From: Symmetrospora coprosmae | Taxonomy: Eukaryota; Basidiomycota; Cystobasidiomycetes; Symmetrosporaceae | Direction of reading: 5' to 3' | Length of the DNA: 64,000 nt | Assembly (NCBI GenBank): GCA_008802785.1 | Contig: VUYT01000022.1 | Span: 62,001-126,000, forward strand | Shown here: one piece after another, positions 2,392 to 56,369 of the stretch | How the letters are laid out: each line of letters starts with the position of its first letter | How positions within the stretch are numbered: position 1 is the stretch's first letter | Position numbers and translations under genes: made by a program | Notes under the pieces: model-generated | The model's input: only the letters and a program-made list of their open reading frames with translations | Told to the model about the DNA's origin: nothing | Database searches by the model: none

Positions 2392-5300
2392 ATGGCCGCG
2401 ACAGACACGTTCAAGGACATTCCAGAGTTCTTCGAGGTGCGTGTGCCCTCTCCTCGCTGTCCTGCACTGTGCCTCCTGGTAGAGGTGCCGCTCACACGCG
2501 TTCGCGCCCTTGTCCGCCGCTCTGAACCACCTGCAGGTCGACCTCGGCGAGTCCATCCTCTCCAGGACAGAATCACTAGGTGAGACCGGATCAAGCTGTC
2601 GTCCTTAGATCTGCAAAATCCAGCTGAATAGCCTCATCGCTGCGGGTAATAATGCACGACAGCCAACTTCCGCGAGCTCGGCCCGCCAGACCTGTGCCAT
2701 GTCATCAAAACGACAGGCAGGAGCGGCAGCAAGGACGTGAGTGCTTGTGGCTCTCGTCGACCTCGCTGCTGGTACTGCGGCTCAAGCTGACCCTGCTGCT
2801 GTCTCGCTCGGGACGCTCCAACCCCTCCACAGGTCGGCTCCTACCACTACGTGTCCGGCGTGGATGCCTCCTCCTCTGCATCGCTCGCCGCATACATCAA
2901 CTCCCTTAGCTATTCGCTAGAGGAGACGCCGGGCTGGTTCAGCTCAAAGGGAAAGAGCGAGTGGAAGATCCGGTCTGGGTGCTACTGGTGAGTTGCATGC
3001 GCCCCCCTTGGTTGAGCCGCAGGCGCAGAGAATGCGGGCACAGAATTGATCCCCCTATCATGCGCCTCACAGTACCTTCAATGCCTTCTCGCGCGTCGAT
3101 GTGCGCGTAGAGGTCAAGATTCCTGGAGGCGTAGAAGCATACATCGTCGACCTCCGCGGAGAACGGCACGCGCCTACGCAGGCGGTATGGACAGAAGTCT
3201 ACTTGTCTGCCATCTTGCGATCGATACTGTACGCCGATGATCCCAGTTACAAGATCGCTGGCTATCGCAAGATGGACCCAATCAAATCCCTCGAGGATGA
3301 AGTGCGATTCCTGGCAGCAGCCGAGATGTGCGCAAGTAGAGGTCAGTGAAATCAGCAATCGAGCGAAGCGTGCCACGTGCCATTGGCATGATCTCATGCT
3401 GTAGCGTATCCCATGCAGGCTGGCAGCTTGGCTCCGACCCGGAGATTCAGATCGCGACGAATGTCTCCAACCACCTCACGGCTGGCATCATGAAGTACTT
3501 TGGCGACTCGGGGCGGTTTGGACCCGCAGTCAACCTCTTCGAGAAGCTGGTGGTCCGCGATGGAGAGATGGCCAGCTTGCTGGCAAAAGCCTATCTTGGC
3601 ATGGGTGAGTGTGTCGAGCATGACCAGGTCATGCGAGACATTACCGCTAACCGTCCTGCCCTCTATCTGCCAGACGAGGAGGTCAAGGCAGTGCAAGTCC
3701 TGTATCGAGCGATTCAGGAGCACCCGCAATCGTATCCCCTTCTCCACGTTCAATGTGACGTTCTGCGGAACAAGGTGAGAAAACCTCTAATTTGACCGGA
3801 GCAGGTTGGAAAGCCCGCTCAGTATACGTGCCTGCATGTCCATCAGGGCAAGTCCGAATGGGCTTACAAACTCGCCAAGCAAGCCGTCAACTGCGCACCT
3901 TCGGAGTTTGTGACCTGGTCGAAGCTCACCGAAGTGAACATCGAGCTGCGTCGATACACCGACGCGCTGCTCACGCTCAACTCTTGTCCGATGTTCACCT
4001 ACAACGAGCGAGATCTGCACCGCATGCCTACGCCTTCGAGGACACACCTTCCAACAAAGGCATATATCCAAGAGAGTGGGATTCTAGCATCGCTCGAAGG
4101 TCCGAATGGCGATGCAGACGCGAACGAGGCCGATGTCGCTCTTCTCCGCTTGCCTGGCCCAAATCTCAAAGGCACTTGGAAGAAAGCGTACGAGTTGCTC
4201 GCCAAGCTGGTCGGGCAGATAGGGTGGGACGAGCTGCTCAAGGCCAGAAGTGAGGTCTTTGTCATGGAGGAGGAGTATCGGATGCAGAAGCAGACTCAGG
4301 ATGGCGGCTCGCCAGTGCAGGAGGGTGGAGGTGAAATGGAGGCTACGCAAGAGGCACGGAGTACTGGCGAAGAGGGAGGTGCTGCAGGAGCCGACGATGA
4401 TGCCTCGGTAAGAGCTGTGCGACAGGTTGCTGGGGCTCAGTCGGAAGGCCCGAACGACTCTCACGCGCGCGCCAGCACGGGCGCAGCCAACGGCGTCCTC
4501 TCGCCTACAGACGAGCAGAGCGTCCTCCGCTCGCCGGAACCACCGGCATCTCCCATTCCCGAGATTCGGATATCACGGCACTCGGAGGAGAACCCATCAG
4601 CTCAGTTCTCCCAGCTCCTGTCCGCGGACACGAATGGCCAGGGCGATGGCGCTGCAGAAGCCGACAGTGGAGATGCCACGGAGGCTGGTGTCGAGGCTGC
4701 TAAGAGCGACCTCGCGGGCCCAGCACCGGGCGTGGAAAAGCCGGCGTCCACGCATCTCAGCGAAGCTCACGATGCGAAGGACGATGAAGTGGCCAAAGAA
4801 GCTGCGGCGGGAGACGAAAGTGTCGGGCGTATCCACAGTGATGAGCAGGATGGTAGCCGTACGCAGACGGTGCAAGATGGCACCGAGAATGAGCAGCAAA
4901 CGCCAACGGGAGCGCACGCTTCTTTCGTGAACAAGCGGTTGTGTGAGCGGTGGCTCGACAACCTGTTCATGGTGCTGTACGAGGTAAGTTGACCGGAGAG
5001 GCAGAGCTCCGAGAGAGAGTTGTTGACCGCTTCGTGACTTCCAATCAGGATCTGCGCGTGTACACCATCTGGCGGTCAGAGATTACGCACTTCAAATCGC
5101 AGCATTTGCCCTACAACAAGACGCCAACGGAATGGGAGATCCTAGGCGACCTGGCAGCTCGACTGCACCATCGTGAAGAGGCCAAGGATGCCTACCAACG
5201 CTGCCTCGAGAAAAAGTTCTCTGCCAAGGCGTGGGGCCGTCTCCTGGAGTACTATGTGGAGGAAGGAGACGTTCAGCGCGCTCTGAATGCCATCATTCGA

Positions 5301-8909: not shown

Positions 8910-11900
8910 CTATCGGATGGGTGACCACATGATCTGGGAAGGGACGATGACGCCGTCTGTCCGGACCAGGAGGATCTGGCGGTCCATGTGGTGGGCGAAT
9001 TCGTCGAGGACCGGCTCCATGCACTCGAGCACCTCAGCGCAAGTCGAATCTGCTCGGCCGGGACTGGGCAGATCACCGCTGTATGTGGAGGAAACCAGTG
9101 AGCCTACGGTCTCGCTCACTGTACCGAGGCAGCCATACTCACAACCAGACAGTCCATTCGGGCCCGAAGTTCTCTCCGTATAGAGCTAGATTCGGTAAAG
9201 GCAGAGTTAGTGACGAGATTGGCTCAAGCTCCAGACAGGTCGTACTGACTGATTGTGCGCTGCTTCTTCAGTGTTGCCAAAGACGGTGCTGCAGTAGACG
9301 ATCGCGCATTGGCTGCTTTCGGCTGATTGACAAGATACCTTCGCACAAGGGGCACGTTCGATAGAGGCATTGACGGGATGGGAGTGAGGAAAGAGTCGGG
9401 ACAACCAGTCGCTTTGCATTTGTACGGGGTGAGGCCGTCGAAGCAGATTGGCGGGACGTAGAACGTGTGTCGAGCGATCTCTGTGGAGGCAATGATGATG
9501 TCAGTTTCTATTAGAAGTAAGCTGCTCTTCCGCACAGCAGCCTCAATTCGGATGGAAGGAGTCGCACCTGTGCCGACGATTGTCCATGTGCCCGCTTCAC
9601 CAGCGTCCTGAGTCCATACGCCTTCGACATTCTCTGCCTCTACTGCCGATGCTAGGCCAGACGAGGAGTTACCGCGTTTCCTGCCCTTGATGGGCCCGGC
9701 AATTGGTGAAGCCAGAGAAGCGGCACCTTTCTTGCCGCGCTTGACTTTTCCTCCATCGTTGGTGATGGGCGTCAAGAGATCAGGATCGGGCATCCCAGGT
9801 TTCGGACCTCGGCTGCCGGGAGCGCCCATAGCAGCCTCTTTGGCGGCGAGAGCTGCCGCATGTCCCGCGAGCATGACATCGAATGGGTCTTCGCCGCTGC
9901 CTCCGTCAGGACTGACATTGCCGAGCGCTTGGTTACCGACCTTCGGGCTGCCCTTGACTTCAGAAGCGTACTGTGTGCGGATCCCTTCGGCCTTCCTGAC
10001 GCCGACATTCTCGCCGAGACACGAGAGGTACGAGCCGCCACCCGCAAAGCCAGTGAGCGGCTCGGACGGTATTCCATACGCTGCAATCGGGTCGGGTATG
10101 ACCTCGAGGGCGATCCTGTGCAGCTGCGAGACAGCATCTCCGAGCGTCTCGCCAGGCGCTGTAGGCAGCTCATATGCCGGTCGAGACGAGTATGGATCGG
10201 GCGTACCACCGCCAATTGCGTGGTTGCCCTTCTCGACCTTTCGAATGACCATGATGGGCGAGACGACGGCGGTGTTGAGACACTGCAGCACGACTGGCTG
10301 ATTATAGTAGATAGGCATATGAACGCCGTTGTTGGGCAGTGGAAGTGCATTTGTCGGCGGTGTAGGGAAGCCAACTCGAGGGTGGGCTGGCATGTGCGCC
10401 TCATCGTCGTGTGCAGGGCGCCGAGGGTCGACGGCGTAGATGACGAAGCTATCCCAGGCCGTCGTTCGTGCTGCATGGTGACGTCGCGTCAGCGATGGCT
10501 CTGCAGACCAGCCAGGAGGCAGGACATACCGGTGAAACAGCTAGCTGCATCTCGCGCAAACGGCTTCTCGTCTGTACCCGTCATTGCATGCCAGTCCCAG
10601 GCTGGGAAGCTGGCAGCAGCAGACGATACACACAAGAAGCGCGTGCTGACGGTTTCTGCGAGAAGGAAAGGATCAGCCCGGTTGCATGCCCGTGATACGT
10701 CTACTCGGTGCCGACTCACGAGATCTCAGGCGGTTAAAGAGCGCCACCGTCCCCCCATGGGTGACCTGGACGTTGCCCTTTTTGCTGTTCTGCGCCTTCT
10801 TGCTCGGCTTGCTGATAACCTTGATTGGCCTCGACGTGAAGGTTCCGATAGTCCTGTGCAAGTCGGAGCCCTGACCTGGCGAGACGATGGTGACCAACGC
10901 CTCGACAGCATTTTTCGTATCCTTGGTCTGCCGCCCGCCATTCTCGTCTTTCCCGTCGGGGATGTACAGCTGCTTGCCGACGACACGCCCGCCGACTGCA
11001 AAGTCCTCGGCAGAGGCAATCTTGTCGGCCGTGTTGCCATTGTACGTCGTCCACTCCAGGAAAGGCTCCGTTGCCACCGGGTCATGCGCCATGGCGACCC
11101 GTACCTCGGGAGGCATAAGCTGTACTGCCGGGTTGCCGGCGAAATTGAGCTTGGCTTTGCTGTTATTGGAGAAGGCATCGGGGAGGTGAGTCCACCAGCT
11201 GCTGCCGAGAATGTAGGCACTCGGAGGGGGAACAAGGAAGCGGCGCTCCGAGCCTGTTTGTGCGAAGGTAAAATCAGCGAGGTCTATTGGTAAGACTCTG
11301 AGTAGTAACTGCACGTGCAGCTTCATCATACTCACCGTAAGACTTCTGTCCGACTGTCGTCGACATGATGACGACCGTCCTTTCGCCTAACAGCATCTTG
11401 TTCTTCGTTTCCAGATAGCTGGTGACATGAGGTCTGAGCAGAACACGCGTCAGCTCGGCCACCATCTCACCACGGTGCTGGGGAGACCTACTTCAGCAAT
11501 GCCTGGACTTCTGTCTCCGACTCAGGGCGGCTAGGTAGCCTGGCCCACGTGTCGAGCGAGTCCTCCGGCGCAACCGCACCGTCCGCCCCGGACGTGTCCA
11601 TCAGGCCGAAAGAAGACATGGTCGGAAGTAGAAAGTCTGGTTGCTGACGAGGCGGGGCGCGTGGGGGTTGAGGTAGTTGCTGTGCACCACTGAACTGGTT
11701 GAAAGCATTGTGTGACGGACCGGGACCGGCTGAGTACGGTGAAGGGTAGCCATATGCGCTCCCGTCTGAAGGGGAACGGCTGTGCGAGAACGGCTGTCGG
11801 TAGTCCTGCGAGGGCGTCTGGTACGGACTGTTGTGGTACGTCGAGCTGCTCCCTGACGGAGAGGCCTGACGAGGGAGAGGCTGCTGATGCGCGATGGGAG

Positions 11901-40314: not shown

Positions 40315-42528
40315 CTACTTGCTGGCCTTGGCCTTGGCTGCGTCCTCTTGCTCCTCGATCGTCTGCAGGAAGAGCTTGTCCTTGCCGGCAAAGTTTTTCT
40401 CGGGGACACCGAGCTCGAGAAGCTCGCTGAAGTACTTGCTAAAGTCCGAGAAGAAAAGCTCCTGGTCCTTGGCGTACGACTGGGCGATTGGGCGCATGTC
40501 CTTGTCCTGCGTTAGCGCCATGTCCTGTCGCCGGCAACGAAGCATCACCCGGTCAGCAGATGGCGATACAAGCAGTCGAGTCCGTCAGGTAGACGCACGG
40601 TCAGGAGCATCATGAGCCCTTTGGTCTTCTTGTCTTCGAACTGGGGCGGTCCGTTCCACTTGCGCACGCTCCACTCCTCGTCGAACAGGAGCTTGTAGTA
40701 GTCGTTGGTGAACGTGGTGGGAGAGAATGTCCAAGGTCCGTCAAAGCCAGATCGGTCTGTGTGGCATCGTCCCAGTGCGTGGGCACCGGAGAGCGCTACG
40801 ATAGCACGGTCGTTGAAGCCCATCTGTCGTGAGCAATCGAGATCAGCGGCGAGGCGAGAAGAACCCATAGGTGTTAAGTTGAGCACACCTTGTAGAAGAT
40901 GTGACGAAGGTGGTCAGACCCTTTGTCGCCGTCTGGGAGTCGACCATCCGGGGTGCAGTGCTCAGCCGTACGATCCTGTCTGCCCGAGCGCCATCCGATC
41001 TTGGGACCCTGCATCTCCTGGACGGCTACGACGCCAGCGAGCGTCCAGAGATCAGAGTAGGAAAGACCAGGGTATTGCTTCTTGATGGGCTCGAGCAGGT
41101 CACGGACGACCTTGAGTCCTGCGTTGGCGCCGTGGTCTGACTCAGGCGCGAAGCTACAATAGGGGAGATGCGTGTGAGCAACCTATTGCGGCAGACTCAG
41201 AGGTGTTGCCATACATAAGATAGAAACAGGCAACTAACCGCATTGTGGCCGCGTTGGAGCCTCCCGTGCCAGAGTGCTTGTCGTATGTGCCCGAGCAGTG
41301 CCAGGCGAGCCTGTATGCCAGGGTTGAGGTGATTTAGCCGCGTAGACATGCTTCAAACTCACATGAAGCAAGCAAGCGCAGTCTCCTACCTGACAAGAGT
41401 AGGACCGTAGCTGCCATCGTCGTACTCTTCACCGTCGAGGACTGCTCACATGGAAGGGGGAAATAGGGGAGGTGCCAGCCAGCGTCAGCGGCACTATCTC
41501 AGGGATCGGGCGAGAGTATCTCTCAGGATGCGTAGAGGGATGAGCGAAGATAGTATGGCTCTTGGACAGGCTCCATCTGGGCGGCGTGCATGAGCGGGCG
41601 CAACGCCCTGGCCACTTCGTGCAGTCAGTCAGGCACGCCACGTGCCTTCTCCGCAGATCAGGCACGGCCGTCACTGCTCCAACAAGGCAGATACCGTAGC
41701 ACTCGTGCAGGAAGCGCTGCAGTGCAAGGCCATCTTCGAAATGGTGCAGTATCTGGCTTGTCCCAGTCCCAAAGGCCGCCTTCCTTGCACCCCGCATTCT
41801 TCCCCGCGCCTCGGGTAAAGAGGGCAGTGGCGCACGGCCGCCACGGCGCTTCACCTCCAGACGGCGGACGCTGCGGGGGGGAGGGTGAAAAAGAGCACAG
41901 GATGAAGGGGAAGGACCGGGGGTGACTCGGGCACGGCCTGATAGGCTGCAGGTTGTGCAGGTGTGGTCGCAGTGTGTGGTGCCAGGATGCGAGAGATGCG
42001 AATGAGTGTGCGTGCTCACCTGCTGCGACAGAGTTGTAGACCTGATGATCATCTCGTAAATTCAGGCACAAGATTGCGAGATAACGAGAGAACAGGCCCA
42101 GAGAGCGCGCCCGCGAAAAAGTGGTGCGTTCATGACGGACGGACGGACGGACAAAGCCAGTCGCAAGAGAGAGGGAACGGCAAGCAGACATCAGTGCCCG
42201 GAGCAGAGCAGCGGATCAGCTGCGTGCAGCCTACCTGCTGGTAGTCGACCTCGGAGCCGGGCTTTCGCATGCCCTCCTGGGTCGTGGCTGGGTCCTGCTC
42301 CTTGGACAGGCCAAAGTAGGCGCCGACCGATCCAAGGCCGAGCAGGCTGATGGTCGCTGCTGGAATCTTGTTCTTCTTGCTACCGCTGCTGCTGCCGCTG
42401 CCGCTGCTGTACTGCCTGTACGACGACCTGGCGATGGTTGCCAGAGGCGCAGCGCGGGCTGCAGGACGGGCAGCAATGGTCGCCTGAGCCTGAGCACTGG
42501 CTCGGAGGACGGAACGGGAGAGGGACAT
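40315..42528 (-). CDS. CCP1: Mitochondrial cytochrome c peroxidase
   Basis: Haem peroxidase of the intermembrane space that reduces H2O2 with electrons from cytochrome c. Exon 1 (42528-42235) holds a mitochondrial presequence ([34 protein letters not shown]) and a hydrophobic sorting segment ([15 protein letters not shown]). A 22-nt microexon (42041-42020) encodes VYNSVAA. The distal site is [14 protein letters not shown] (Arg, Trp, His), and the proximal His is in [34 protein letters not shown] and [22 protein letters not shown] are conserved in class I peroxidases. The stop is at 40315-40317. The introns on either side of the microexon are long for this window (193 and 578 nt). All catalytic residues are present. 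Confidence 0.95.
42134..42152. repeat. (GGAC)n tetranucleotide repeat in a CCP1 intron
   Basis: Almost five tandem GGAC units inside the first long intron of the cytochrome c peroxidase gene. A simple repeat with no coding role. Confidence 0.85.
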
Positions 42529-42869
42529 GGTTGACTTTTGGTTGTAGTTGTCCCTGTGTAGAGTACGCTGTTCAGATATTGCGCTGTCTGCGGCTGCTGA
42601 GAAAGCAAAAACGAAGGCCGTCCTTGCTCTCTCCTGCTGGGCTGCCGGCAGTGAGCAGCGGCAGGTGGCGACCACGCGGCTCTTGTCCCGGGTCGCCCTT
42701 AAGCTTCTTGCACGCGCATCCTCTTCCAGGACCGAGCAAGCACTGCTCTCTCTGCTCCAAGCCTACCACGCAGTCACAGCAACGATATAATACCAGGAGA
42801 AGCCGTGTAGCACGCTACACACTGCCTGGAGCGGGCATTGTTTTGTCAAGAGCAGCGGGGAAAGGTACC
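42529..42869. promoter_or_regulatory. Divergent promoter, CCP1 and peroxisomal ABC transporter
   Basis: 341 nt between opposite start codons. A TATA-like GATATAATA lies at about 42783, about 85 nt before the ABCD start, and the ABCD start has an ACCATG context. Co-regulation of H2O2 disposal and fatty-acid import would make sense, but this is inference. Confidence 0.45.
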
Positions 42870-45734
42870 ATGTCGGGACCCGGGGCCGCCACGACGTCGA
42901 CCGCGTCGGCCGCAGCTCGTGGGGGAGCCATGGCGACCACAGCTGCCAGGAACAGGCTCGCTCACCTGTACAAGTTGCATCCTGTAGCACGTACACGCCT
43001 CCTCATGGCCGCCTACGTCTTCTGGGCTGGCTACTCGACGTACAGCGGGTTCAGGCCAAAGGCAAAGGGCAAGAAGGGGAGTCCGGCTACCTCGGCCCCC
43101 GTCACTAGCAAGGATGGCAGCAACAGCGCCGTCGACGCCAACGCCAACGAGCCTCTTGCGTCCTCCTCGTCCTCGTCCGCGTCCTCTCGGAAGAGCAAGA
43201 GGCGGCGCGCACCCAGGGTCGAGGTGGACGCCGCCTTCTTTGAGCGCCTTGGCAAGATCCTCAGGATTGTCCTCCCAGGCAACAGGAAGAAGCTCCTGCT
43301 GCACTCGTTCTTCCTCGTCTTTCGAACCATGCTCTCGCTCTACGTCGCCGCACTGGACGGGCAGATCGTGTCTGCTCTGGTGCGCGGAGAAGGCCAACTG
43401 TTCATCAAGCGAATTGCCACATGGATGGTCGTTGCCATTCCCGTGGGTGTCCACGCACGCACACATGAGCCTGGACCCTCGCGCAGCCCGCTCATCCGGT
43501 GATCTTCCCTTCCCGCCCAGGCCACATACACCAACTCCTTCCTCTCCTACCTGCAATCCCGCATCGCCCTCTCGTACAGGTCACGCCTAACAGCTCACGT
43601 CCACACCGCCTACCTCTCCGACAACACGTTCTACTCGCTAGGCAACCTGGACGACCGCATCAAGAACCCGGACCAGCTGATCACGGTCGACATCACAAAG
43701 TTCAGCAACTCGCTCGCCGAGATCTACTCCAACATTGCCAAGCCCACGCTCGATGTCTTGCTGTACAACTATCAGCTGAGCAAGAACGTCGGTGCCGAGG
43801 CGTTGATAGCGCTCACTATCCTCGTGCAGGGATCTGCTGCCCTGCGTAAGCGAAAGCCCCGCGTTCCGATGGTGGAGTTCTGTCACCTCGACTGGCTGAC
43901 ACCGCTGCCTGTCTGTCCTTCACGATGCGCACACAGTCCGCTTCTTGACCCCCGCATTTGGGCGATATGCGGCCGAGGAGCAGCGCCTGGAAGGCGAGTT
44001 CCGCTTCTCGCACTCGCGCCTGATCGAGAACGCCGAAGAGGTGGCCCTGTACAACGGGCAGGAAGTCGAGAAGAACGTCATTGAGCGGCACTACTTCAGC
44101 CTCATCCGCCACGTCAACCGCATCTTCCGCCTGCGCCTCTGGCACGGCATGGTCGAGGACGGAATTGTCAAGTGGCTTTGGGGCAGTCTCGGCTTGTGCA
44201 TCTGTGCGATCCCCGTGTTTGGCCCGACTCTCCTGCCTGCTGCGGCGACAGCCATCGGTGCCGGCGGCAGCGCCGGCGGAGCCAGCAAGGTTGACTTTGG
44301 CAGCCGAACCGAAGGCTTCATCACCAATCGGCGGCTCCTCCTCAGCTCATCGGATGCGTTCGGACGCGTCATGTACTCGTACAAGGAGCTGGCCGAGCTC
44401 GCCGGGTACACGGCCCGCGTGGACGAGTTCCTCACGACCATGAATGCTGTAAAAGCGCGCCGCTTCGAGAAGAAGCTCGTCAGCTCGGCGGGAACGGAGG
44501 AGAATGCCAGAGGTGTGTCGCGTGGCGCGATCCTGCTGTGTACGGCGATCAGGCTGACTGACCAAATCACGTCGTGGTCGCTACAGTCCTCCAGGGGAGA
44601 GGGAAGATTCTGCCAAGCTACGACGACTCCATCGTCTTTGACAGAGTGCCTATCGTTTCGCCCAATGGTGACATCCTGCTCAAAAGCCTTTCCTTCCGCA
44701 TCACACCAGGCGTAAGTACTTGCATCTCCTCGCCGAGCAGCCTCTCGCTTGCTGAGTAGCCTATCTCTCCAGGATCACCTCCTCATTGTCGGTCCTAACG
44801 GCTGTGGGAAATCTTCGTGAGTTGACGATTCTGTGCAAGACCTGGCGGTACTGTTGCAGCTGAGCTGACGAGTATCGGACGCCCGGGCGCGCCCGGCAAT
44901 CAGCCTCTTCCGACTCCTGGGCGGATTGTGGCCGGTCTACGGCGGGACAGTCACCAAGCCACCTGCGTCAGATTTCACCTACATACCGCAGCGGCCTTAT
45001 TTATCCCTCGGGACCCTCCGCGATCAGATCATATACCCGCACGATGAAGCCGAGATGCGCGCCCGTGGGTCGATCTCCTTTCCCCCCTGTGCAGCAGATT
45101 GGATTCTGGGGACCGAGCTGATCTTGCATTCTTTACAGGCGGTAAGACGGACAAAGATCTCTTCGAGATTCTCGAGATTGTTCAGATCGCCAACATTGTC
45201 GATCGCGAGGGCGGCTGGGATGCGCAGCGCGAATGGCGAGATGCGCTGTCCGGAGGCGACAAGCAGCGTATCGCAATGGCGCGGCTGTTCTACCATGCAC
45301 CCAAGTATGCCATCCTCGACGAGTGCACGAGCGCCGTGACGCTCGAGGTTGAGAAGATCATGTTCGTATGCCCTGGAGATCGCGTCTGTTAAAGAGGTGC
45401 CGTGTAGCTGATAATCCTCAACGCAGGTACGAGCACGCTATGAAGCTCGGGATCACTTTGTTGACAGTGTCGCACCGAGCAAGTCTATGGCAGTAAGTCT
45501 GCGCCCTCCAAGGGTCCGGCTGGCTATGTGGAGTCAGGCTCACCTTGCTGTACGCCACGCAGGTATCACAAGATGATTTTGCAATACGACGGGCAGGGCT
45601 CGTACTACTTTGGCGAGCTAGACCCGGAGAAGCGCCTCGGTCTGCAGGAAGAAAAGCAAGCACTTGAGGCCAAGCTGCTAGAGGTGCCGAAGCTGCAGGC
45701 GAGACTAGCAGAGCTCGAGCGCAGACCAGCGTGA
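42870..45734 (+). CDS. Peroxisomal ABCD half-transporter (Pxa1/Pxa2, ALDP-like)
   Basis: Half ABC transporter importing long-chain acyl-CoA or fatty acid into peroxisomes. The N-terminus has a hydrophobic segment ([18 protein letters not shown]) and a Lys/Ser linker. The TMD holds the ABCD hallmark [13 protein letters not shown] and the [12 protein letters not shown] motif (EAA-like). The NBD has Walker [11 protein letters not shown], split by an intron at about 44817, then [14 protein letters not shown] and [22 protein letters not shown]. The signature is [15 protein letters not shown], and Walker B is [16 protein letters not shown]. The switch ([20 protein letters not shown]) is followed by a coiled-coil tail and the stop at 45732-45734. 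There are about nine exons. It needs a partner half-transporter; I cannot tell Pxa1 from Pxa2. The SET gene follows 154 nt downstream. Confidence 0.94.
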
Positions 45735-45888
45735 GCAGCCACCTGTTGCGAGCAGGCTTGCGGTTGTCGCGTGCTCGATGGTATCGATTGTGTATACGAG
45801 CAGAACGCGTGCATAAGCTGGGCATAACCCCTGCTGTCGCGACTTGCCTTTATGCCAACATGACGTTTCGAGCTCATCCGTGAAACGC

Positions 45889-47064
45889 ATGCAAGACATC
45901 ACTTCTGCAAAGGAATGTGTCAAGATACCTTTGCGAGCGCGGTCCGAAGATGGGGCCGATCCGCATAAGGCACTTGAGCGCTTAGTGGAAACCTTCACCT
46001 ACTCAAGCTGCCACGTCCTGCCGGCGGGCGTTCGCAATCTGCTGCAGGACGCTGAAGACGGCGACGGCACGAACGATGGCTGCGACTGCAGACTAGCTCA
46101 GTGCGGGACCGCAGATGCCGACTGCGACTGTATAGACGAGCACGGTAGGCGGCGAGGTGCGGACTCCTCCACTCCACGGAAGGCTGACCTAGCTGCCGGC
46201 GCGTAGGCTGTTTCTACGATGACAAGGGCCGCATCGACCTCGACGCCATCCCTCCGCGCTTCGCTCTGTACGAGTGCGGACCTGCTTGCAGCTGTCGAGG
46301 CGAATGTCGCACTCGCATCGTGCAAGCTGGAATCAGGTTCGTGAGACACAGCGCGGCCCACAGGCATTGATCGTCGGTTGACAGTTGCTAGTCTAGTCAA
46401 AGGTGCGAGGTGCGCTGGGTTGCCGGCAAAGGATACGGCCTCTTCGCCCTGTCGGACATCCGGAAAGGCAGTTTCCTCTGCACGTACTCTGGGCAGATCC
46501 TCAGCACGGCTGAAGCAAGGCAGCGGTGGACTCGCCAGGCCGAGACAGGCGAAGACAACTACATCCTGGTCTTAAAGGAGACTATCTCAAGCAACGACGG
46601 CCGCCAACAGACACTCAAGACCATTGTGGATCCGACCGAGGTGGGCAATGTGGGCCGTTTCATGAGTGCGTGCTTGCCCAACTTGCAATGCGCGGCCGAA
46701 GATGTCGCTGATTTAAGCTCAAGCTGCGATCCGCAGACCATGCCTGCCCTCCCGCAGCGACGCACATCATGCTGCCTGTGCGGACTGTAGGCACGCTGAT
46801 CCCAATGCCAGCGCTTTTCGCCGTGCGCGACTTAGCTTGCGGGGAGGAGCTGACCTGGGACTACGGAGATGCCGGCGGCGAAGGCTGGTTCTATGGCCGT
46901 CCGTCAGACGTGGCTGTAGGCGAGAGACCATGCGAGTGCAACAGCTCCCAGTAGGTCGCTGGTAATGTGCTATTCAGTTCTCGCCAAAGCGAGAGAAGCT
47001 GATGTCTCAACTCTGCCGTCCACCCAGATGCCGAGGCGCCATTCCGTACGATGCCACCTTATAG
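45889..47064 (+). CDS. SUV39-clade histone H3K9 methyltransferase without chromodomain
   Basis: SET-domain lysine methyltransferase related to Clr4/DIM-5, which methylates H3K9 to build heterochromatin. Pre-SET cysteines read CDCRLAQCGTADADCDC, then YECGPACSCRGECRTR. SET begins RWVAGKGYGLFALSDIRKGSF. Splicing 46665 to 46737 creates GRFMNHACPP, the catalytic NHxC motif. PALFAVRDLACGEELTWDYG follows. A last intron (about 46952-47035) is needed to finish the post-SET: PCECNSSQ joins CRGAIPYDATL, giving CxCx4C and the stop at 47062-47064. Unspliced, the frame ends one residue before the third Cys. Only about 55 residues precede pre-SET, so there is no chromodomain, as in Neurospora DIM-5. The start is the first ATG; an upstream TTG frame exists. 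Confidence 0.88.
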
Positions 47065-47165
47065 ATGTTGATGGCCTTGGAGAATGTCGTTGTATTCATT
47101 TGCATAGCCGTCATACATACTTCAGCTTCGGTACCCGGCGGAATTCTGTCTCTGCTCCGGACAAC

Positions 47166-48527
47166 ATGCCTGCCGCTATGACCTCGTACGAGACATTTCC
47201 GCAAGACGGTATTGAGCGATCCTATGGAATCATCCCGCTGCGCTTCTCTGGCGATGCCATCGAGGTTCTCCTGATCCAGCAGTGCGTCTTTCAATCAAGC
47301 TCAAGCCGGGGTCGTACAGATCTAGCCCTAGACCCTGATCCTCGAGTTCAGCCTCTCGACCTCCGAATGGGGCTTCCCGAAAGGACACGCCGAGCCGCAA
47401 GATGCCAGTCCACTGGCCGCTGCGAAGCGCGAGCTCCTTGAAGAGACCGGAGTGCAAGCTGCTAGACTGCTCTTCGACCCGCACGAGGTATACTTCGAGA
47501 GCCGGTACACCAACCCGCGAACGGGCCGCGAAAAGGTGACCACCGTGTGGCCCGCCGAGATTCGTGACGATGCGCAAATCACCGTTCAGCCAGACGAGAT
47601 CATCGCGTACCGTTTCGTGCCCATCGAACACGCCAGCAGTGTGCTCTCGTTCCGCGAGGACCGCGACACGATGGCCCAGCTCGCGCCTCTTCTCCGTGCG
47701 GAGCCGGACCCGGCTCGGTACCCGAAAATCATCCTCTTCGGCGATTCTCTCACACAGTTCTCGCATCAGGCTGGAGGGCTTGCGCAGCGCTTGGCCGACA
47801 CGTATCAGCGTCGGCTCGACGTCGTCAACCGGGGTTTCTCGGGATACAATAGCACCTGGGCCCTACAGCTTCTTCCGCATATCTTTCCCGTTGCTCAAGA
47901 GGATCATGGGAGACCGCTCGAGCTCGTTGCCATCTGGCTCGGCGCAAATGACGCGGCGGGCCCAGGCTCATCACAGCACGTCCCCGTGGCACAGTACTCG
48001 GACAACCTACACCAGATCGTCGAGCATGTCCGCGTCGCCGCTCCACGCGCAAGACTTGTCTTCATCACACCGCCGCCTGTCCTTCCCCCATTCCGCGAAC
48101 GTAGCTTGACGATCCAGTACGTCGAAGCACTCCGCGCTATTGGGGCACAGCTGCAAGTCCCGGTGGTGGACTCGTTCGCGGCGATCGAAGCAGCAGCTGG
48201 CGATGCCGAAGGCTTGCGGGATTACCTGAGTGATGGACTGCACCTCATACCTGCTGGCTACAAGGTGAGTGCCTGCGTGTGTCTCGTTGCAGAACAGGCT
48301 AGTCGCTGACTCCTTGCGCGGGAGATCATCTACGACGAGCTGCTTAAGGTCATTGAACAGCACACTCCAGAGCTCAAACAGTCAAGACTGCCCATGATGT
48401 TTGCCCCGCACGAGTATGTACAAGCACACGTTCTGTCGAGAAGCGCCCTTAATGACCATTCTGTTTCAGTCGCATCATACAACACCAGCCCGAAAAGGCC
48501 TTCCGGACCATCAGGCACTACGTATGA
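47166..48527 (+). CDS. Nudix hydrolase fused to SGNH (isoamyl-acetate-hydrolase-like) esterase
   Basis: Four exons (47166-47281, 47352-48264, 48325-48413, 48470-48527) splice in frame to 391 residues. Residues about 18-145 are a Nudix fold: SYGIIPLRF, VLLIQH and EWGFPKGHAEP, then the Nudix helix KRELLEETGV (65-73). The first Nudix Glu position reads Asp, with one extra residue before RE. It resembles diadenosine-polyphosphate or diphosphoinositol hydrolases. After about 20 residues, a complete SGNH domain starts: ILFGDSLTQ (Ser171), RGFSGYN (Gly203), IWLGANDAA (Asn238) and SDGLHL (Asp333, His336), closest in style to yeast Iah1. Exon 2 alone carries the Nudix helix and all four SGNH blocks, so the fusion is not a splicing guess. 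Both domains look catalytically competent. It follows the SET gene by 101 nt. Confidence 0.85.
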
Positions 48528-48770
48528 TATCGTTGCAGAGGCAGTACAATTCGAGGCACGGGCGCGGGAGCTAACGAGGGGATATATGAACATATGAAGG
48601 AAGCACTGCGTGTGGTCGCTACTTTCCGAATCGACCAGCGAGTTGGGATACGCGTCCAGACCCGTTGACGGGTACTGTCGGGCTAGCGATAGCCTGCTTG
48701 CGATTCTCGATCTCTTGACTGTAGCTGATCGATCAGCTTGCGACTCCTTAACCGAAGGAAGGCTTGCGAC

Positions 48771-51700
48771 TCACATAAGCGCGTGTGATCGTGTAGGCGA
48801 TGGCTTGCTGGGTGGAATCGGCGCTGCAGTCGGCGATGTGACGAGTAGCGTAGGCACGACCTCCTGAGATGGATGACCCTTCACGTGCATACGAGGCTGC
48901 AGCGTCTGCTGAGGTGATGACAGGTGGACTCCGCTATCGCTAAGGGCGACGTCTGCCTGCGTATCCGCTCCTGACCGAGACGATGTTCGGGGTGGCGGAC
49001 CCTCGTACATCGAGCCTCGCCAGATCGGGTCCCCATTGGGCGAGTCTTGTTCGCCATCTGGCCCGATATGGCGATCGGCAACGTGATTGGGGACAATGAC
49101 CTCTAGGTGCTCGTCGCTTGTCGGAGCGTCGTCAAGCCCATCGTACGGGTTCTCCGAGAGGGCTTCACTGACTCTGCGGTCACCTCGCTGGCTAAGATAC
49201 GGGCTTTCGCTGCGATCATACGCATTCACAATCTCCTGAGCGTCCATAGCAGACACGCTGGTCATGCGTCTGGCCGCGTTCGCCTCCTCCTGTCCAAAGC
49301 GGGGTGGCGACGGGAGCTCGCGGTCATGGACAGACGTGGAAGTCGAGATGGTCTCTTGCGACGGACGAGGAGCTGCGGGACCAATCTCTCCCGCCTGAAT
49401 CGTATTGTGAGACGGGAGCATCCCTCTAACCCTTGCTGGCGAAGGCGAAGGCGAAGGAGAAGAGGCTGTGCGTTCTCGCTCTCGCGCAGTGTCGCCAATG
49501 TCGCTATGGCCAGAGGTAACCTGCGTGTCCATCGTCCGCGACGTAAGAGCGCTCGAGGAGGGTGGGGCGCGCACATAGCGCTGTGCGTGCAGTTCAGGCG
49601 ATCCTTGCTGGTCCATCTTTTCCACCCAAATCTGAGCATGCTTATCAGCATGTGTAAGTGGTGTCCCGAGCTGTCGAGACAAGCTAGAGCGCTCACCGTC
49701 GGACTGGCCATTGGCTGACCACTGCCTGCTACTCCATGCTCCTGTAGATTGAAGCCGGCAGAGGCTGCTGAGGCTGGCGTGTGCAGCTCGGTTGGACTGT
49801 CGATCGGGGTCCGTACGGCGCTCCTATTGGTAGCTTGCGGCGTCCCGAATGTGGTGGGATTTAGAGTGCTGCTGTCTTTCCTCCTGGTCGTCTTACGCAT
49901 CATGTCCATGAAAGCGTTCCCGCTCTTCGCAGCTGGCTTCGTGTAGCCAATGCCGCCCGTCTGTGAGCTGTGACCTACACCAGCAGGACTGGAGGTACCA
50001 GCGGGGCGCTGACTGGAGAGCGTCCCGCCGATGCCGTTGCTGATGTCTTCGCGGTGGATGACGACAGGCGGTGTATCGATAGGCTCGGAAGTCTGCTCCT
50101 CCGGGATGGTATGAGCGGTCGAAGAGTGCGACATGCCAGCTGACGAGAATGACTTGGTCAAGGAGACCACTTTGGTGGGAGGTCCGCCAGATCCAGGCGC
50201 AAAGATCGAGTCGTCCGGTTGCTTGAGAGCCGGACTCGTACTGCGACTGCCGTGTACAACAACCGCGCCCGAGCCGTTCCTTGACGGGGTGTAGGGCAAG
50301 CTAATCTTGCTGCCCTTCGAGCCAGCAAGGATATCGGCCGAGCCAACTGGACTGGAAATGGTGGGCAAAGGCGGAGCCTTTGACGACTTTTTGCGGACCG
50401 AGCGCAAGAATGAGATGCGCCGAGATGACTTGGGCTTCTGTTGCTGCAGACCCGCCTCGAGCAGTGCAGCCCGATACTCTGCAGGGACAATCTCTTCGAT
50501 TAGAAACCAGGTCTCGTCGGTACGCCCGTCCGCAGCTGAGCCAGAAGACGGAGACCGGGTGCCGGCATCAAATGGACGAGTCCGGTACTGCACGAGAGCC
50601 CAATTTGACTCCTTCATCTCGTCTCGAGCCCAGCCGGAGCTGCAAAGCACATCGCTGCAATGGAGAAGACCTCGTCGTCAGCTTTGCCGCACGCTCCGAG
50701 AGTAGGGTGAGGTGGCACTCACGCAAAAACTTCTAAGAACTGCTTGTCGACCTGGATAGGACGTTCCTCTCGCGGAGTGATGTCGAAGTTGAAGGGCGGC
50801 AGGCTCTTCTCGATGCTCCTTGCCTTGTTAGCTAGAAACTTGCGATGTTCTTCATCCAGCACATCGAGGGCATTTGCGTTCTTAGAAGACGGCGAGGCAG
50901 TACTTCGCAACTGACCGGGACGAGGGAGCCCAGGCGCACCATAAGTGACGAGATCGTTCGCGCCAGGATTGAAGTTGAGATCGTTGTCGAGGAAAGTCTC
51001 GCGTCCTGCGAAGCCGCTGTTTTCGAATGCGGTCCAGTCGATTGTCTCGTGGCGCTTTCGCCTGTTCTGGCGTTCGCTCTCTGCCACGATAGCACGAACT
51101 CTTAGCCGCGACCTGCTGATGAAAGGCATGCACGGAACTCACCGGTCAAATCGAATCTCAGCTTGTTGGCATCAGGCGCCGCGAAGCCAGTATGCATGAA
51201 GCTGCTCCATTCCTTTTCCACAACGCTGCCGAACTTCTGCATCCCTTCGCCATCGTCATCATCCCCCTCTGCGGAGTCTGAGCGGATGTTGAGTAGGTGC
51301 CGGTAGCCCCATGTATACGAGAAAGGTGAAGCTTTGGCTGCGATATCCATGCCTGCCGAGTCAAAAGTCTGCAAGGGCGAGATCATTGCCCAAGCTTTTG
51401 AGCGCGGGACGTCCCAGCCGCTGAAGGAACGCAGTGTCAGCACCGGATGCGGGAAAGAGAGGCTAGAGCTGTTTAGGGTAAGGCTCACCCCGCAGTCTGC
51501 ACAAGATTCTTGGAGTAGAAGCGGATGTGTCTGCGTATGCGCACGACTTGCTGCAACTGAGCGCCCACTGGAGGCTTGTTGAGATTGGTAGGCAGGCCAT
51601 GCGGGTAGTTCTGGATCAGCTCGCGCAGCCGGGCTGGGACCGGCGTAGACTCCTGCGCGATCTGATCGCGGATGTAGGCGAGAAGCAGATGCTCTGTCGC

Positions 51701-53262: not shown

Positions 53263-55717
53263 CTAGAACTGCTGTGCTGCTCCAGACACGGACCTGCTTC
53301 TGCTCCTCTGGACCATCTCCTGCTCCCTCTCCTTCCTCTCCTCGCTCTTCTCCTCGCCACCCTCGACCTGCTGCTTGTCCCTCTTCGCCGACAGCTTACT
53401 CCAGAGCCCGACAGCCATGTTGTTCTTGCCGGTTGGCTCGTCCACAGGCGCCGCCACCTTTCTAGCCAAGCCCGAGTCGTGCCAGCTGACCATGGCGCAC
53501 TGCGGCGGCTGCTCGCCCTGCAGCGAGCGCGTGAGGTACCCTTCCTTCTCTGCGATCGCATAATCTTCCTCACGGATCCGCCTGAATCTGTTCAGCTCCT
53601 TCGCGTACTTGCTCTCGTACTTTGAGCGCGTCTCAAGCCACTTGCTCACGGGTCCTGCAATGTGCACACGCCCGACGTGCCCTGGCGCCATGTTGAGCGC
53701 GGCGATGTCCGCCTCACCCTCCATGGGCCGAATGTATCCGTGGCAGCTGACACGCTGTCTGATCATGTGCGTCGACGGGTCAAACGCCGGCAAAGCACCG
53801 AGGACTGTGATTCTCTCTCGCACTGGGCGATCAATGTCTCCGTCCCGTGTGCCGGAGGGCGAGTGGTCGACTGATAGTGACGAGGACGAGCGGGAAGAAG
53901 CTGAGCCTTCGGACTGGACATCGTCCTCCCTCAATGGCTCGAGGTTGGCGGCCTCGTGCAGTCGGTCGGCGAGCTGAGAGCCATTCGACCCGCTTCGATG
54001 CTGCTCGCGCGCATCATGGACACCGTTGCTCGACAGGCGTCCGTACGCCTCCGCGGCGGCGGGAGCCAGGGTCGAGGAGCGCGAGGGCACAGCAGAAGGC
54101 GATGTCGAGGACTTTGCGGCTCTGTGAGCAAGTTTCTTCTTGGCAGCGCTCAAGGCCCAGAGGTTGAAGTTGGCGGCAGAGCGGTACATGTACTGCAGTA
54201 CCAGGCAATCGATCGGATGGTCAGCCTTACGCTTGATGTTCGCGAGCACCTTCAAACGCTCACCTTGGCAGGAGTCGTGATGCTCAGCGTCGGGATCACA
54301 TGAGCACACCCGTCAAATACCTGCAGCTGAACCCGCGTCGGCTTGTAGCGGTGGAGCTGCTCGCCAAGCACCGGATAGTCGTCGAGGACAGCCTGCGACG
54401 GCGGATACCGCTCCGGATTAGCTGCCTTGTGAGCGAGGTAGATCTGCTCATCGCGCAGAAGCTCGCCACCGCCGGAGTGCTACAGGCGTCGATAGTAGCA
54501 AGGCTCAGCCGTTGGCAACCCCATCCCACCACCATTGCGAGCACTCACAATCAGGAGGGGACACAGCCCGCCGAGACTGCCCTGATTGACTGGCGATACT
54601 AGCGGATGTGACAGAAGTACATTCGGGCAGTATAGCTGGATCTGTTCATCAATCGCCAGAGCTGGCTGTCCGGGCTCGTCCGACTCTATCGTTAGTACCG
54701 AGCCCTTCACAGGCGGCCAGGCCAGTCTGCGCGTATTGAGTGTTCAGTCGGCGTCCGATCTGAGCAAACTGCAAGGGCTGAGAGCACTCACGATGGCTTG
54801 AAGTGGAAGCCGTTTCCTGGGATGTAGTCTGTTTCTGCGTTCGTCAGGATGCTCGGAAACGAGTGACAGAGGTCGACCCAAGGGCTGAAGAGATCCGCGC
54901 CTGCTGGCATCGGCAGGCCGAGGTCACGAATGCAGACGAGGAGGCTGATGACGCATCCCCCGCCCGCACTGTCGCCGGCCAGGATGATGTTACGCGGGTG
55001 GATGGGCGCGTGTGCCGCGTCCGGCGGCGGCGAGATGAGGAAGAGGTACGAAGCGAGAGCGTCGAGGAGCGCGCATGGGAAGGGGTACTGGGGCGCCAGT
55101 CGATATGCCGGTGCAAAAGCACGACCGCCGAGCTTGCGTGCGTGGCGCTGAATCTGGTAGCGATGCGTGTCGAGGGATGAGAAGAAGTACGCTCCGCCAT
55201 GGATGTAGAGCATCACTCGCTCGTCCTTCTCTTCGGGAGTCCCTCCTTGCGCTTGCGCTGGCGCTGGCGCTGTCGTGCGCTTCACATAGTCCTTCTTCAT
55301 CTCTATCCATTCTCCCTGGAGCTCCCGACCGCGCACCTTCCACCAGTGCTTGCCACCGATCCTCTCCATGCTGACTGGGCCATAGCTCTCCAGTTGACGC
55401 TGCAGCAGTTCCTCTGCCTTGTCGATGCACCCATCCTGCGGGACGGTGACTACGGTGCGCTTGACCCAGGATGGCGCAGGCACGTGCGTTGCCGTGAACT
55501 GCTGCGTCTCTTCGAGCGTGTGCTTGGCCGCGAAGGCCAGGAACGAGCGGATGACCTTGATGCCCTCGTCGTAGGTGATCTCTGCGGTAGGGTCGCCGTC
55601 TTCCTCCTTGGTCGCCTTCTTCTTGCGCCACTTCCGCCGAGAGAGGTAGTGCGACAGGAAGGTCCCGATGACTGTGGGCGTCGTGGCAGCCCCGACGGCA
55701 AGGGTACTGATGGTCAT
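53263..55717 (-). CDS. Alpha/beta hydrolase, hormone-sensitive-lipase-like, membrane-anchored
   Basis: Predicted esterase or lipase of the alpha/beta hydrolase-3 (HSL) group. The N-terminus has one hydrophobic segment (STLAVGAATTPTVIGTFLSHYL) followed by RRKWRKKK, suggesting an ER or lipid-droplet anchor. The core has the oxyanion motif VMLYIHGGAYFFSSLDTHR, FAPAYRLAPQYPFPCALLDA and the nucleophile elbow IILAGDSAGGGCVISL. FSPWVDLCHSFPSI follows. Later exons give LSHPLVSPVNQGSLGGLCPLLI, GGGELLRDEQIYLAHKAA (acid loop) and LQVFDGCAHVIPTL (catalytic His). After an intron the frame goes on as YMYRSAANFNLWALSAAKK, then about 280 disordered residues ending QQF at 53263-53265. The family is common in fungi and often described as steryl acetyl hydrolase-like; the substrate is unknown. 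It is divergent from Dre2. Confidence 0.87.
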
Positions 55718-56369
55718 TGTGTGTGTGCGTGTGTGTTCGCGACCCGATGAGGTGAAGTGGTGCGTGCTCTGACTGGGATGGCTGCAGGCGCAGCGTATGT
55801 CACTCCCCTGGGCCGTTCGGCTTTCACGCGCCTCCTGGGTTGTTGACGGCCGGCTGATGGGACCGAGGGGAACTGAGAGGAAGGAGCGTGGTGCCGTGAG
55901 TGCGTCCGCAGAGATGAGCGTCTGCCTTATGAGTGAGAGAGAGAGAGAGCCGTGGGTGGAAGTAGTGAAGCCGGGGGCAAGCCATTCCGCTTCAACGGCA
56001 ATCGTGCACCGTGCCCAGGCACTGGCAGTACGGTGGGGGATGGCCAGCCGCGTCCCCGGCACCGAGAGAGTTGGTCAACAGGTTTGCAAGGGTGCGATGC
56101 ATGGGGAGGACAGATCCAGTGCAGCAGTACGGCTGCGTCAATGGGGCTTATAGTAAAGGAAGCATGATTGCTCTGCAGTTTGCTTACTGCCCGTCCCCGT
56201 CCTCTCGGCCGGCTCTTCCGCCTGCTGACTTGCACTCTTTCGACGACGACGGCCCGACCCCGTGCAGACAACCCTTCAGCTCAGCTCGCACCCGTCTCTC
56301 AAGTCGATCCCACACTACGCGCACACGGACACACACAGACCCAGATCAGTTCGTAGCAGCGCCTTCGCC
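55718..56369. promoter_or_regulatory. Divergent promoter, alpha/beta hydrolase and Dre2
   Basis: 652 nt between opposite start codons. It holds a (GA)n run at about 55934-55950 and a (TG)n-like run at about 55717-55738, directly next to the hydrolase start. No gene was seen. Confidence 0.45.

Follow-up and report, generated by a model that had tools for sequence, protein, structure and literature searches.

A Nudix hydrolase domain and an SGNH esterase domain fused in one predicted polypeptide of Symmetrospora coprosmae

Nudix hydrolases are recognised by a signature box with the consensus G-x5-E-x7-REU-x-EE-x-GU, and SGNH esterases by conserved blocks I, II, III and V, which carry Ser, Gly, Asn and Asp-x-x-His, respectively. 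The asymmetrical Ap4A hydrolases human NUDT2 (3u53) and chlamydial CT771 (4ilq, 4mpo) share the Nudix fold, a PKGH stretch and the RE..EE residues with the N-terminal half of the protein reported here, and are the best PDB relatives of that half by both sequence and fold. Unlike them, the present protein is fused to an esterase, has an insertion in the Nudix box together with Asp56, and is uncertain in the position of its X-loop tyrosine. The C-terminal half resembles yeast Iah1, whose 240-residue chain (3mil) fits a single domain, whereas here a Nudix domain precedes the esterase. MutT1-type 8-oxo-(d)GTP phosphatases (9cxx, 5gg5, 3fjy) offer a further comparison: their longer chains, of 341–364 residues, are matched by the Nudix domain close to the N-terminus. 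We take this type to be a fusion of a Nudix domain with a histidine phosphatase, and so a precedent for Nudix-hydrolase fusions with a partner other than an SGNH esterase; the Nudix match to these chains is much weaker (E 1.4e-4 to 0.039).

The locus lies at 47166–48527 on the plus strand of the window, the whole stretch of 64,000 nucleotides that was analysed. Predicted splicing yields a four-exon gene with GT...AG introns of 70, 60 and 56 nt and a coding region of 391 residues from ATG to stop, in agreement with the product proposed by a sequence-only reading of the same DNA. Exon 1 (47166–47281, 116 nt) supplies the N-terminus and the start of the Nudix domain and has an A at position −3 of the ATG. 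Exon 2 (47352–48264, 913 nt) holds the bulk of the Nudix domain, the linker and the SGNH catalytic residues in one frame; exon 3 (48325–48413) encodes the C-terminal end of the SGNH domain, and exon 4 (48470–48527) ends with the stop codon. The intervening introns, at 47282–47351 (GTGCGT...TTCAG), 48265–48324 (GTGAGT...GGGAG) and 48414–48469 (GTATGT...TTTCAG), are bounded by splice sites that are predictions. Longer starts at upstream in-frame Met codons were rejected, although the stop-to-stop frame 46920–47441 is open upstream; the predicted start at 47166 was kept because homology begins at residue 17.

In the spliced protein, Pfam NUDIX (PF00293) matches residues 19–142 (3e-17, 63.3 bits against a cut-off of 21.1) and Lipase_GDSL_2 (PF13472) matches residues 167–344 (3.1e-26, 93.4 bits against a cut-off of 32.9). 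Both families are also found in the unspliced 325-residue open frame at 47332–48309 (3.6e-15 and 2.6e-26, respectively), and since this frame alone carries both domains, the fusion is independent of any intron call. These spliced and unspliced matches bear out the earlier claim that the two domains share the 913-nt exon, and the frame is open across the junction, with neither a stop nor an intron between the domains, as had also been proposed. By a codon score whose reference was four hand-picked stretches, and which therefore gives weak support, the reading frame beats the other five in 9 of 11 scoring windows of 90 nt, those over the linker included. The two that do not favour it start at 47803 and 48253, and most of the second falls within intron 2. 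Open frames of at least 250 residues number 33 across the six frames of the 64-kb window, and because long open frames are so frequent here, openness alone proves little. Frame openness and codon bias are both weak, and each was rejected as proof of the fusion by itself. At this level of evidence, the proof is the homology on both sides within one frame and not the openness of that frame; within the reach of sequence analysis, the fusion is real at the level of the gene.

The Nudix half contains a GFPKGH stretch and the Nudix box at residues 46–73 (47371–47454, plus strand), including the RELLEETGV helix that the sequence-only reading had located, at residues 65–73. This helix fits the consensus, while the box as a whole departs from it, reading G50-x5-D56-x8-RELLEETGV. 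It is one residue longer than the consensus and has Asp56 in place of the first Glu, in a column that is nearly invariant Glu in an alignment of 18 sequences (A3); neither the Asp nor the insertion occurs in the 24 bacterial open frames aligned, where the position is always Glu. The RE..EE residues are present, and they are invariant throughout the same 18-sequence alignment. The box is relaxed in a domain that still matches its family profile, and Asp56 and the insertion may change or reduce Nudix activity.

The nearest PDB sequence for the Nudix half is chlamydial CT771 (4ilq, E 7.7e-14, residues 17–148), and further matches to Ap4A hydrolases include human NUDT2 (3u53, 5.9e-9) and 1xsa (3.9e-8); 3i7u is also so named. 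PDB chains named DIPP 1 or 2 match at E values of 0.017–0.12 and cover only about residues 9–76. Of the two types offered by the earlier reading, these sequence comparisons favour the Ap4A type over the diphosphoinositol type. No NCBIfam family reaches its cut-off for the protein, the best being MutT1 at 27.7 bits against 475. In ADP-ribose enzymes, a proline lies about 16 residues after the Nudix box. The present protein has Pro82 and Pro94, which are 9 and 21 residues beyond Val73, and no proline at 16. PMC5389931 describes a proline downstream of the box as common to ADP-ribose Nudix enzymes, and an X-loop tyrosine that touches adenine in Ap4A hydrolases. The position of Phe87 is almost always Tyr in the other sequences of A3; Tyr86 and Tyr91 are close to it, and the alignments differ in this region.

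The SGNH/GDSL domain occupies residues 167–343 within exon 2 (47734–48264, plus strand), and its Pfam end at residue 344 falls in exon 3. All SGNH block residues are present, each at the residue of the spliced protein given by the earlier reading: Ser171 in GDSL (first base of the codon at 47746), Gly203 (47842), Asn238 in GAND (47947), and Asp333 (48232) and His336 (48241) in DGLH. By analogy with the SGNH family, Ser171 is presumably the nucleophile, His336 and Asp333 the base, and Gly203 and Asn238 the oxyanion hole. The nearest solved sequence is yeast Iah1, an isoamyl acetate-hydrolyzing esterase (3mil, 2.6e-25), which aligns over residues 162–361 and so into exon 3; the next SGNH entry in the PDB is 1yzf at 1e-7. 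This supports the Iah1-type assignment that had been proposed for the esterase half. The SGNH alignment (A2) leaves out sequence L026, which stood in a wrong reading in alignment A1 (24% identity).

By Pfam bounds, the inter-domain stretch spans residues 143–166 (47662–47733, plus strand) and holds Met146 (47671). The earlier estimate of a linker of about 20 residues was therefore right in its order of size but not in its exact figure, the Pfam gap being 24. Structure models, which are weak, place a helix at residues 140–154 and the first SGNH strand at 165–169, so that the free linker would be about 10 residues long. One model covers exon 2 and used 17 Nudix alignment rows (mean pLDDT 67.9, pTM 0.47), and the other covers the SGNH domain alone and was made without an alignment (mean pLDDT 58.8, pTM 0.63); exon 1 and exons 3–4 are absent from both, and sequences L024–L028 were left out of the modelling. 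In Foldseek searches, the Nudix part of the model matched CT771 (4mpo, with Ap4A products) and human Ap4A hydrolase (4ijx, 3u53), and the SGNH part matched E. coli TesA and PAF acetylhydrolase. Iah1 (3mil) is not among the best 50 Foldseek matches listed for either model, so the link to Iah1 is one of sequence. The models appear compatible with both folds and give no basis for domain packing or for facing active sites; because they are weak, nothing is drawn from them on packing.

The gene content of the window looks fungal. It includes a match to ChAPs (Chs5p-Arf1p-binding) proteins at 3796–4989, a family of fungal range, as well as SET, ABC-transporter, PHD-finger, CIAPIN1 and dynein light intermediate chain matches, and its predicted introns are short. 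Upstream of the fusion, 46188–46954 (plus strand) carries Pre-SET (below cut-off) and SET pieces resembling a histone methyltransferase and ends about 210 nt before the fusion start. About 2.5 kb upstream, two open frames at 42351–44712 (plus strand) carry pieces of ABC_membrane_2, which we take to be the family of peroxisomal fatty-acyl transporters. A second esterase-type frame lies at 54791–56074 on the minus strand, with an Abhydrolase_3 match (2.9e-26) and a weaker match to Say1_Mug180 steryl acetyl hydrolase (1.7e-7). At 9227–10540 (minus strand), a beta-trefoil DNA-binding (BTD) match reaches 24.6 bits against a cut-off of 25 and perhaps marks a CSL-type transcription factor. Rfam and ARAGORN scans gave no matches, and a tandem-repeat scan of 45000–51000 found none.

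No listed match carries both domains, whether among 724 genomes from three bacterial phyla or among plasmids, phages and PDB chains. The PDB search matched 58 distinct sequences at E values up to 1, and in none of them does the best stretch span both halves. Searches with exon 2 (P0001, 304 aa) matched one domain or the other. In genome contigs, at least 23 loci were matched (at least 594 stretches); the 23 listed are all Nudix, and phmmer at E 0.1 found no SGNH open frame of 50 aa or more in flanks of up to 3 kb around any of them. Matches occurred in 21 of 294 Planctomycetota genomes at 1e-6 (22 rows, one domain each), in 159 of 232 Chlamydiota genomes at 1e-6 (the Nudix side in all matches listed) and in 15 of 198 Elusimicrobiota genomes at 1e-7 (15 rows, Nudix side), the first and last of these sets being samples from larger groups. 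Distant SGNH partners would escape these thresholds, and the three phyla sampled are uninformative on fungi. Only 5 of 72,556 plasmid records and 2 of 50,697 phage records matched, no place covering 80% of the query, and three scans of viral contigs turned up no relative. The best-scoring bacterial Nudix matches are from Chlamydiota, with 38–43% identity over about 100–110 residues in the top three rows.

Some Nudix-side rows extend to P0001 residues 129–145 through stop codons (for example G090, G207 and G682), and others lie inside open frames of more than 500 aa (G163, G183 and again G682); none of these five bacterial places has an SGNH frame at phmmer E 1. PF13472 had no match in one planctomycete genome, and 9 of 14 control genomes were matched, of which the named ones are all prokaryotes, so that this search says nothing on fungi. 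Certain planctomycete SGNH domains (L024:370-2616, L025:403-2616 and L028:118-2634) lie within frames of 738–839 aa and are perhaps fused to other parts. In three bacterial genomes (L035:3-1325, L036:3-1349 and L037:2-1330), the Nudix match ends a frame of at least 441 aa that is truncated at the edge of the stretch analysed, and because it sits at the frame end, a different part may precede the Nudix domain there. A fusion of a Nudix domain with a GDSL/SGNH esterase is not named in the titles or abstract openings of the literature searched, and the terms GDSL, SGNH, lipase and fused do not occur in the text of PMC5389931. As far as these collections and this literature show, the pairing of these two well-known families is new.

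The protein is probably one polypeptide with two independent active sites, an Ap4A- or cap-type Nudix hydrolase tethered to a small-ester SGNH esterase. Two working sites are expected because each half retains the main residues of its family, and both halves are accordingly likely to be active. In the Nudix site, Glu66, Glu69 and Glu70 would hold Mg2+, as in the family at large, and the water so activated would cleave a nucleoside polyphosphate, for example Ap4A or a 5′ cap. In the SGNH site, Ser171 would attack a small acyl ester such as an acetate, together with His336/Asp333 and Gly203/Asn238, the substrate again being that suggested by the family. The short linker would tether both domains, and the tether may serve less to channel substrates than to keep the two activities co-expressed and co-localised.

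Enzymes joined in one chain often belong to one pathway, and the in-frame fusion is tight, as would suit a two-step enzyme acting on a single acylated nucleotide (O-acetyl-ADP-ribose, acyl-AMP or an acyl-CoA-like compound), with the Nudix domain cutting the pyrophosphate and the SGNH domain de-acylating. Against this, the closest relatives of the Nudix half by sequence and fold are Ap4A hydrolases, and the absence of a proline at the ADP-ribose spacing (Pro82 and Pro94 lie at 9 and 21 residues) is weak contrary evidence; we consider such an enzyme quite improbable. A shared two-step acyl-nucleotide or CoA pathway was the interpretation of the sequence-only reading, whose fusion and family assignments hold while the pathway itself finds no direct support beyond the fusion. 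It is also decidedly unlikely that the protein is a dedicated bifunctional enzyme for an undescribed fungal step, in which an acyl-nucleotide is cut and de-acylated, or one in which Ap4A on the altered Nudix domain gates the esterase. The insertion and Asp56 in the box would be in keeping with one domain having lost or changed its catalysis to become a binding or regulatory module, such as a Nudix domain that senses Ap4A and tunes the esterase, but RE..EE and all five SGNH residues are present, and this arrangement is unlikely.

The lack of any two-domain relative in the collections searched, and of any named in the literature searched, would be expected if neighbouring genes had been merged by a deletion and the product kept without functional meaning, an account to which we give little credence. 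An assembly or sequencing error joining two genes is very improbable: only a single copy was seen, but the Pfam domains are just 72 nt apart, a gap too short for one ordinary gene to end and another to begin, and across the junction the frame stays open and is favoured by the codon scores.

If two independent, tethered sites are the correct reading, acyl or acetate activation is a possible common theme of the two halves, since acyl-CoA synthetases can make Ap4A, possibly via an acyl-adenylate, according to PMC7705103; that such synthesis was the cause of the fusion is speculation. The same paper describes S. pombe as being without a Nudix Ap4A hydrolase and using the HIT enzyme Aph1 instead, so Nudix Ap4A enzymes are not universal in fungi. 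Were the fusion confined to one species, it would be a curiosity. If it is conserved among fungi, it would suggest substrates for both halves and would be a clue that a stress nucleotide, or nucleotide caps, and acetyl-ester or acyl metabolism are connected.
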